The translations under genes were made by a program, and so were the position numbers. Below the pieces are notes generated by a model that worked only from the letters and a program-made list of their open reading frames with translations, did no database searches and was not told the origin of the DNA. Source: Streptomyces sp. SCUT-3 (GTDB lineage Bacteria; Actinomycetota; Actinomycetes; Streptomycetales; Streptomycetaceae). From it: 64,000 bases of DNA. Below, piece after piece: positions 1-45,486 of this stretch. The DNA lies in assembly GCF_014083985.1 (NCBI RefSeq), contig NZ_CP046907.1, forward strand, positions 3,262,501 through 3,326,500. The letters run 5' to 3'. Position 1 is the stretch's first letter. Every line of letters starts with the position of its first letter.

Positions 1-2900
<2,900 letters not shown>

Positions 2901-2991
2901 TAGCTGCTCGCGTTCACTGTGTGGTTCTGAAGTAACGGCCGCCGAGCCCACCCCCGTGCGGGGTTGGTGTTCCGGCCGGCAGCTTCACAGC

Positions 2992-3110
2992 GTTTCGGTG
3001 GTTATAGCGTTAGGGAAACGCCCGGTCACATTCCGAACCCGGAAGCTAAGCCTTTCAGCGCCGATGGTACTGCAGGGGGGACCCTGTGGGAGAGTAGGAC
3101 ACCGCCGAAC
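2992..3110 (+). rRNA. rrf: 5S ribosomal RNA
   Basis: A 119-nt 5S rRNA. The ends GTTTCGGTGG and CCGCCGAAC pair to form the terminal helix. The conserved interior CCGAACCCGGAAGCTAAG is present, as is GGGAGAGTAGGACACCGCC near the 3' end. It follows the 23S gene after about 90 bp, as expected for 16S-23S-5S order. No tRNA gene follows it. Confidence 0.97.
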
Positions 3111-44233: not shown

Positions 44234-44420
44234 AACATTCTCCTTGGCACAGGGACGCCGGATATTCACCCTGTGCGAATATCCGGTTCGCTGCTGTTTC
44301 CGCCCTGCTCCAGAACCCCCGGGAAGAGCCTGAAAACACAAAACCCTGCGGTCACATGCTCCGCAGGGTTTGAGTACTGCAAGGGAAAGCAAACTGCAAC
44401 TTGCTTCGAGCGTAGCACGG
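44234..44420 (-). promoter_or_regulatory. structured 5' leader of the cold-shock gene
   Basis: In order on the minus strand: (1) a hairpin AAACCCTGCGG / CCGCAGGGTTT (44371-44341, 11 bp, 9-nt loop) followed by TGTGTTTTC, like an intrinsic terminator or attenuator. (2) A perfect 10-bp hairpin CCGGATATTC / GAATATCCGG (44286-44258). Its 9-nt loop contains GCACAGGG, complementary to CCCTGTGC located immediately 3' of the hairpin and next to the AAGGAG ribosome site. The loop and tail can form a pseudoknot or an alternative hairpin. A promoter with TACGCT as -10 (44417-44412) and TTCCAC 17 bp upstream is plausible. Confidence 0.7.

Positions 44421-45486
<1,066 letters not shown>

Follow-up and report, generated by a model that had tools for sequence, protein, structure and literature searches.

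A conserved leader of actinomycete cold-shock genes, predicted to form a structured RNA with a terminator-like stem

Cold-shock proteins are RNA chaperones, and the post-transcriptional control of their genes (csp) in actinomycetes is unexplained. The window, by which we mean the whole analysed stretch of 64,000 nucleotides, carries on its minus strand a csp gene whose leader brings this question down to concrete, mutable parts: which of its possible helices are maintained in related leaders, and what might they do? The initial annotation had read the leader as an attenuator-like stem followed by a hairpin beside the ribosome site, the loop of which could pair with a downstream tail and so switch ribosome access with temperature. 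Our comparisons identify it, on sequence grounds, as a conserved leader RNA of actinomycete csp genes that is predicted to be structured. The architecture of this leader is new; cis-regulatory csp leaders as a kind are already known. The parts referred to below are the following, all on the minus strand.

44409..44417: extended −10 promoter element TGCTACGCT (TGnTAnnnT is present in 218 of 221 collected leaders)
44374..44401: 5' box A-GTTGCAGTTTGCTTTCCCTTGCAGTAC, near-invariant in aligned family leaders, with its start placed at about +1
44341..44371: P1, an 11-bp terminator-like stem with loop AGCATGTGA, identified by covariation; arms read as AAACCCTGCGG (44371-44361) and CCGCAGGGTTT (44351-44341)
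44332..44340: T-rich run TGTGTTTTC 3' of P1, identified by T enrichment across the 221 leaders
44302..44316: possible small hairpin GTTCTG-GAG-CAGGGC, its 3' arm overlapping the P2 5' strand; any function is conjectural
44301..44308: P2 5' strand GCAGGGCG, from its duplex energy with the tail and similar helices in divergent lineages
44258..44286: P3, a 10-bp hairpin, identified by covariation; arms read as CCGGATATTC (44286-44277) and GAATATCCGG (44267-44258), loop GCACAGGGT (44276-44268)
44247..44257: tail CGTCCCTGTGC, both the P2 3' strand and the partner that the initial annotation gave to the P3 loop, from reading and duplex energies
44254-44247: loop-complementary segment CCCTGTGC, read from the sequence
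44240..44245: Shine-Dalgarno sequence AAGGAG, read from the sequence
44233: csp start codon ATG, read from the sequence
44233-44030: csp coding sequence, a cold-shock protein of 67 aa

The two stems proposed earlier, P3 and P1, are found in the sequence as they had been written. P3 does lie near the ATG, at a spacing of 24 nt and not 27 nt, and the loop partner does stand upstream of AAGGAG, with a gap of 1 nt after CCCTGTGC in place of the 2 nt given. The P3 loop could close further through C-G and G-U pairs, leaving an ACAGG loop. Over a 169-nt piece of the leader, the folding z-score is −2.7 and 1 of 200 shuffles does as well; the 64 kb as a whole contains 38 perfect stems of at least 10 bp, each register being counted, compared with 0–10 across 8 shuffles. 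The proposal of a structured csp leader is upheld by this folding score together with the covariation of P1 and P3 in relatives; it is this covariation, as read from aligned sequences, that provides the strongest evidence that the leader is structured beyond chance. Elsewhere in the window, 23S and 5S rRNA genes (Rfam matches) occupy its start (positions 1-3110), and a terminator-like site with six T stands just upstream of the csp promoter (44450-44464, minus strand).

We examined how far the leader extends among actinomycetes. A query covering the leader and the start of csp (44420-44200, and thus partly coding) gave a match in every one of the 249 genomes of the window's family, and the best among the matches listed begin at query positions 1–20, that is, in the promoter and leader. 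In the window's own genome, each of the csp paralogs L002 and L003 is preceded by the box, by a terminator-like P1 and by a hairpin upstream of the ribosome site. Among 200 genomes of the family, 132 contain the paralog-type box pattern and none contains it read backwards. A looser pattern is present in 29 class genomes out of 296, covering 4 of 115 genera, and its backwards reading in 2; of 150 genomes from a second family, f17, 15 contain the looser pattern. The same leader stands before csp in named records of Embleya and Nonomuraea gerenzanensis, which is why we read the window's family as probably Streptomycetaceae and f17 as probably Streptosporangiaceae. One box variant was followed in named genomes, where all 14 matches precede csp (12 in Jiangella or Phytoactinopolyspora, two in MAGs). 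Four genomes (G054, G078, G093 and G131) hold five or six paralog-type box copies each; some copies may be assembly duplicates, since G054, G093 and G131 are many-contig drafts.

A covariance model of the box and P1 (R2; 77 positions, 59 training rows) gave matches in 77 of 296 class genomes, spread over 32 of 115 genera and 13 families. We fetched 60 of these matches: from outside the window's family 40 of the roughly 55 listed, and from within it 20 weaker matches. A script placed 56 of them before a csp start, reading revealed a csp frame at two more (L229 and L249), and at L247 and L257 it revealed none. A csp gene behind the match was verified in 12 families, the window's own counted, and the match in f35 is not csp: there, at L247 (genome G330), the box and P1 precede a non-csp frame (MGLGCARSEWDD...). 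Six csp-like genes were counted in the window's own genome, of which R2 finds three (E ≤ 0.01), all with csp leaders; the other three gave no R2 match. The window's leader itself is matched at E 1.6e-12, by construction, as this leader (L001) is among the training rows of R2 and likewise of model R1. At E ≤ 10, R1 found in the own genome two csp leaders and a terminator-like stem before a tRNA gene (E 0.6), and did not find L002. Across 246 genomes of the phylum, R2 matched nine genomes, none outside the window's class. In plasmid and phage collections, neither the window leader nor the L003 leader had a match; the L110 leader matched 10 records, and the box precedes csp in three of the four examined, no box being found by script in the fourth (L300, Streptantibioticus cattleyicolor).

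A box pattern, similarity to the leader, and the models R1 and R2 were the routes into the collection of leaders, so the conservation of the box and P1 is in part an artefact of selection. None of the models or patterns used for collection contained P3, but P3 lies inside the 44420-44200 query. At gathering score, nothing in Rfam 15 matched the window's leader or any of 17 related loci, and no description of such a csp leader family was found in the main texts of the published literature searched. A leader common to the csp genes of 12 families would add a new family of RNAs to genome annotation.

As far as the aligned sequences tell, the box and P1 are the best-conserved parts of the leader. 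In the collected leaders that have it, the −10 element ends 5–11 nt (mode 7) before the box, which is why the box should begin at about +1. When 121 leaders were aligned blind to structure, 977 of the 1069 P1 cells were paired (91.4%) and 24 double-compensatory events were inferred, compared with 1–7 when the partners are slid. In the model-fitted alignment A5, which includes one reverse-strand row (from L011), pairing reaches 95.6% and 10 of 11 pairs have two-sided support. A T-rich run follows the stem: taking the best of seven 8-nt windows beside it, 199 of 221 leaders have at least 5 T; single windows elsewhere in the leader contain at least 5 T in about 0.5% of cases, a figure not like-for-like with the best-of-seven measure. 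P1 thus has the layout of an intrinsic terminator, a stable G+C-rich stem and then a T-rich run, between the inferred start and the gene. The upstream attenuator-like stem and T-rich run first noticed in one genome are features of the family, P1 covarying and the run recurring. In the window itself, the T run is only moderate. A simple terminator scan listed P1 neither in the window nor in L003; for the window the reason is the loop limit of the scanner, which is 8 where the P1 loop has 9.

A few candidate partners were tried, and among these no conserved antiterminator pairing was found. Pairing of the box with csp start codons, which the folds of L003 had suggested, was rejected on inspection of the table alone, which revealed no covariation. 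Between the box and the motif upstream of P3, duplex energies are −8.52 kcal/mol for own partners, −8.23 for swapped and −7.14 for shuffled ones, both sides varying too little to tell own from swapped partners. In L013 (genome G008), the P1 loop contains three tandem CATGTRACCGG-like units, a repeat expansion of the loop motif.

P3 was assessed in a second structure-blind alignment (A6) of 124 leaders, in which 89.7% of its cells are paired and two-sided changes occur in 10 of 10 pairs; sliding the partners by 1–3 columns lowers pairing to at most 56.4%. Parsimony on the A6 tree infers 69 double-compensatory events, versus 2–15 for slid partners. This set comprises 75 of 95 plus 49 of 56 segments, and the 27 omitted were near-duplicates and awkward segments without a clean P3 (among the latter L143, L145-L147, L170, L180, L241, L266 and L269). 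Because some of those omitted had no clean P3, the test was repeated with all 151 segments, the helix being picked as the best-paired run, and gave 90.4% pairing with 82 double events compared with 6–11 for slid partners. The check suggested at the outset, covariation across homologous leaders, thus comes out positive for P1 and P3 alike, and the hairpin beside the ribosome site proves to be real and covarying. When all pairs were scanned for covariation under a tree-based null, those of P1 and P3 ranked high, with E < 0.5 for one pair only; we attribute this to the deep split between two groups of leaders, and directed tests were then used. The scan, like the 98-leader swap tests given below, omits 13 leaders with long middles and no P3.

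P3 cannot be essential everywhere, since it is absent from 67 of the 165 leaders of the first set (54 short ones and the 13 with long middles). Streptomyces sp. BHT-5-2 (L302) is a named example of a leader without it. The exact 15 letters of GTTCTG-GAG-CAGGGC occur in 39 of the 54 short leaders and, on paper, three pairings compete in many of these: GTTCTG:CAGGGC, GGGC:GCCC and GCCC:GGGC, the last over the Shine-Dalgarno sequence. Just 5' of P3, many long leaders carry a conserved, apparently unpaired motif of the GCRGCRAC type; in the window, the motif GCAGCGAAC (44286-44294, minus strand) lies directly 5' of P3 and overlaps its first base.

The covariation of P1 and P3 bears on one alternative, that the box acts at the DNA level, as an operator or as an initial-transcribed sequence for promoter escape, and that the stems matter little. 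The box does adjoin the extended −10 element, and kinetic modelling places two S. coelicolor csp genes under putative HrdB-RbpA control (PMC6344877). A DNA operator does not predict that P1 and P3 covary as RNA helices, and we regard this explanation as very unlikely.

The tail that follows P3 has two potential partners. With the P3 loop of the window it can form 8 pairs, a run whose length has a probability of 0.004 with shuffled tails, and the resulting duplex (−11.5 kcal/mol) is the strongest among 98 long leaders, followed by that of L013 (−9.1 kcal/mol). The tail can pair better with the upstream strand GCAGGGCG, the P2 pairing, at −16.5 kcal/mol versus −11.5 kcal/mol for the loop. When loops and tails were swapped between leaders, 40 of 5000 permutations were as good as the true partners in the redundant set of 98, a result in favour of a conserved device that we attribute to related sequences having one loop and tail in common; among 39 representatives, 425 of 5000 were as good. 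Moreover, CCCTCGC persists as the tail throughout a set of relatives whose loops differ (GAGG, GCAG, GGGG, GCGG, ACGG). The pseudoknot or competing hairpin that had been put forward as a switch finds no support in this constant tail with changing loops or in the swap test in representatives, and we rejected it as a conserved device, there being no coevolution once redundancy is removed. From the sequences compared, the complementarity of loop and tail appears to be largely a peculiarity of the window.

P2-like helices recur in diverged sequences, as CGTGGG/CCCACG in L002, AGGGGCC/GGCCCCT in L110, GTGGGAGC/GCTCCCAC in L231 and TTCTGAAG/CTTCAGAA in L255. Own and swapped P2 strands did not differ in 98 leaders (2376 of 5000 permutations as good) or in 39 representatives (1079 of 5000), and differed weakly in 42 representatives (293 of 10000). 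We consider a helix P2 around P3 to be probable, and grade it no higher because these swap statistics are weak.

Could the leader nevertheless sense temperature by itself? We computed thermodynamic equilibrium folding from 10 to 42 °C; kinetic or protein-dependent effects may come on top of what such folding captures. At 10, 30 and 42 °C, predicted mean exposure of the Shine-Dalgarno sequence was 0.36, 0.38 and 0.39 in 98 long leaders, 0.76, 0.77 and 0.77 in 56 short-form leaders, and 0.38, 0.38 and 0.39 in 11 short paralog-form leaders; in the window, it was 0.60, 0.58 and 0.51. Between 10 and 42 °C, predicted opening of the start codon rose from 0.38 to 0.44 in long leaders and from 0.35 to 0.53 in the window, whose minimum-energy fold at 30 °C differs from that at 37 °C. 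Equilibrium folding of this kind is weak evidence at best for a thermometer, and at the start codon the predicted shift runs opposite to what a cold-induced one would need. With Shine-Dalgarno exposure nearly flat from 10 to 42 °C, the idea of a thermosensor receives little support from computation.

The temperature direction of E. coli cspA is opposite to the efficiency gain of S. coelicolor csp mRNAs upon heat shock. In a polysome study of S. coelicolor, six csp mRNAs are reported to be translated more efficiently after heat shock as their transcripts fall, and very little is said to be known of the molecular basis of such translational control (PMC6009599). We infer a link between this control and the present leader. 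An RNA thermosensor, in which the loop-tail pseudoknot or an alternative hairpin shifts ribosome-site access with temperature, would draw on the 8 pairs and exceptional duplex of the window, on the swap result in the redundant set, on the window's start codon and its change of fold between 30 and 37 °C, and on the published shift of translational efficiency with temperature. We nevertheless hold it to be improbable: the tail stays fixed as loops vary, the redundancy-reduced swap test is non-significant, Shine-Dalgarno exposure hardly changes in long and short leaders and falls in the window, and the published effect is a higher efficiency after heat shock (PMC6009599).

A second alternative gives P1 no role as a terminator: 5' hairpins would protect the abundant csp mRNA, and P2 and P3 would set ribosome loading, so that the leader would act purely on translation or mRNA stability. 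Stem-loops at the 5' end stabilise mRNAs in other systems, and P3 is positioned directly 5' of the ribosome site. The observation that csp mRNAs hold their ribosome occupancy as transcripts drop (PMC6009599) agrees with this reading as well. It leaves both the T-rich run after P1 and the strongly conserved box unexplained, and we think it rather unlikely.

We prefer a reading of the conserved csp leader RNA in which P1 is an attenuator, the box a sensor, and P2 and P3 a translational layer, and would put it at an even chance; the function of the leader is inferred. P1 would be a conditional terminator controlling the amount of transcription that enters csp and, behind some csp paralogs, a DEAD-box helicase gene as well. 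The box, in the nascent RNA, would do the sensing, most likely through an RNA-binding protein that reads it. The first candidate would be Csp itself, which would close an autogenous loop; E. coli Csp is an RNA chaperone and antiterminator, and it is by analogy with E. coli alone that Csp is possibly the sensor here. P2 and P3 would keep the ribosome site in a defined context, as a second, translational layer.

A helicase-like open reading frame lies 3' of csp in 6 of the 15 loci examined. Among these are both leader-bearing csp paralogs of the window's genome, L002 and L003, each followed by a DEAD-box helicase-like frame. The leader of L111 (at 1500 in genome G362, family f17) is intact, and the csp gene behind it has decayed to a short frame starting MTTGTAPRSHH, after which a DEAD-box helicase-like frame follows, as expected for a cold-shock unit.

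Taken further, the leader would be an undescribed riboregulator in which Csp or another RNA-binding protein reads the box and thereby governs termination at P1, giving an autogenous circuit of csp, or of csp and helicase, with P2 and P3 acting on translation. We offer this fuller version tentatively, as possible but doubtful. If true, all leader-bearing csp and csp-helicase units would be coupled through a single leader RNA whose box occurs in up to six copies per genome, and the translational control seen for csp mRNAs under temperature stress, so far unexplained, would come from P2 and P3.

Among known systems, S. clavuligerus offers the kind of product that P1 would give, 150 premature transcription units having been reported there (PMC8269248); the main text of that paper contains no word beginning with csp. 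In C. glutamicum, cg0215 (cspA) likewise has an actinobacterial csp leader: two studies describe its 5' UTR in RNA-seq, of about 180 nt from the table coordinates (PMC3890552), and list the leader among those in the small-RNA fraction (PMC4046766). It differs in that the cg0215 5' UTR was assigned to the Rfam cspA motif in both (PMC3890552, PMC4046766).

The leader of E. coli cspA, represented by RF01766, is likewise a long structured leader of a cold-shock gene. Its "cold box" is conserved and sits near +1; the box of the present leader is a conserved element at a similar place. No close relation had been claimed, and none appears: with 134 nt of coding sequence included, RF01766 reaches 19.7 bits, far below its gathering score of 78, and at E ≤ 10 it is not listed for the leader alone. 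Unlike E. coli cspA and RF01766 in both sequence and layout, the present leader combines a terminator-like stem and its T run with a covarying P3.
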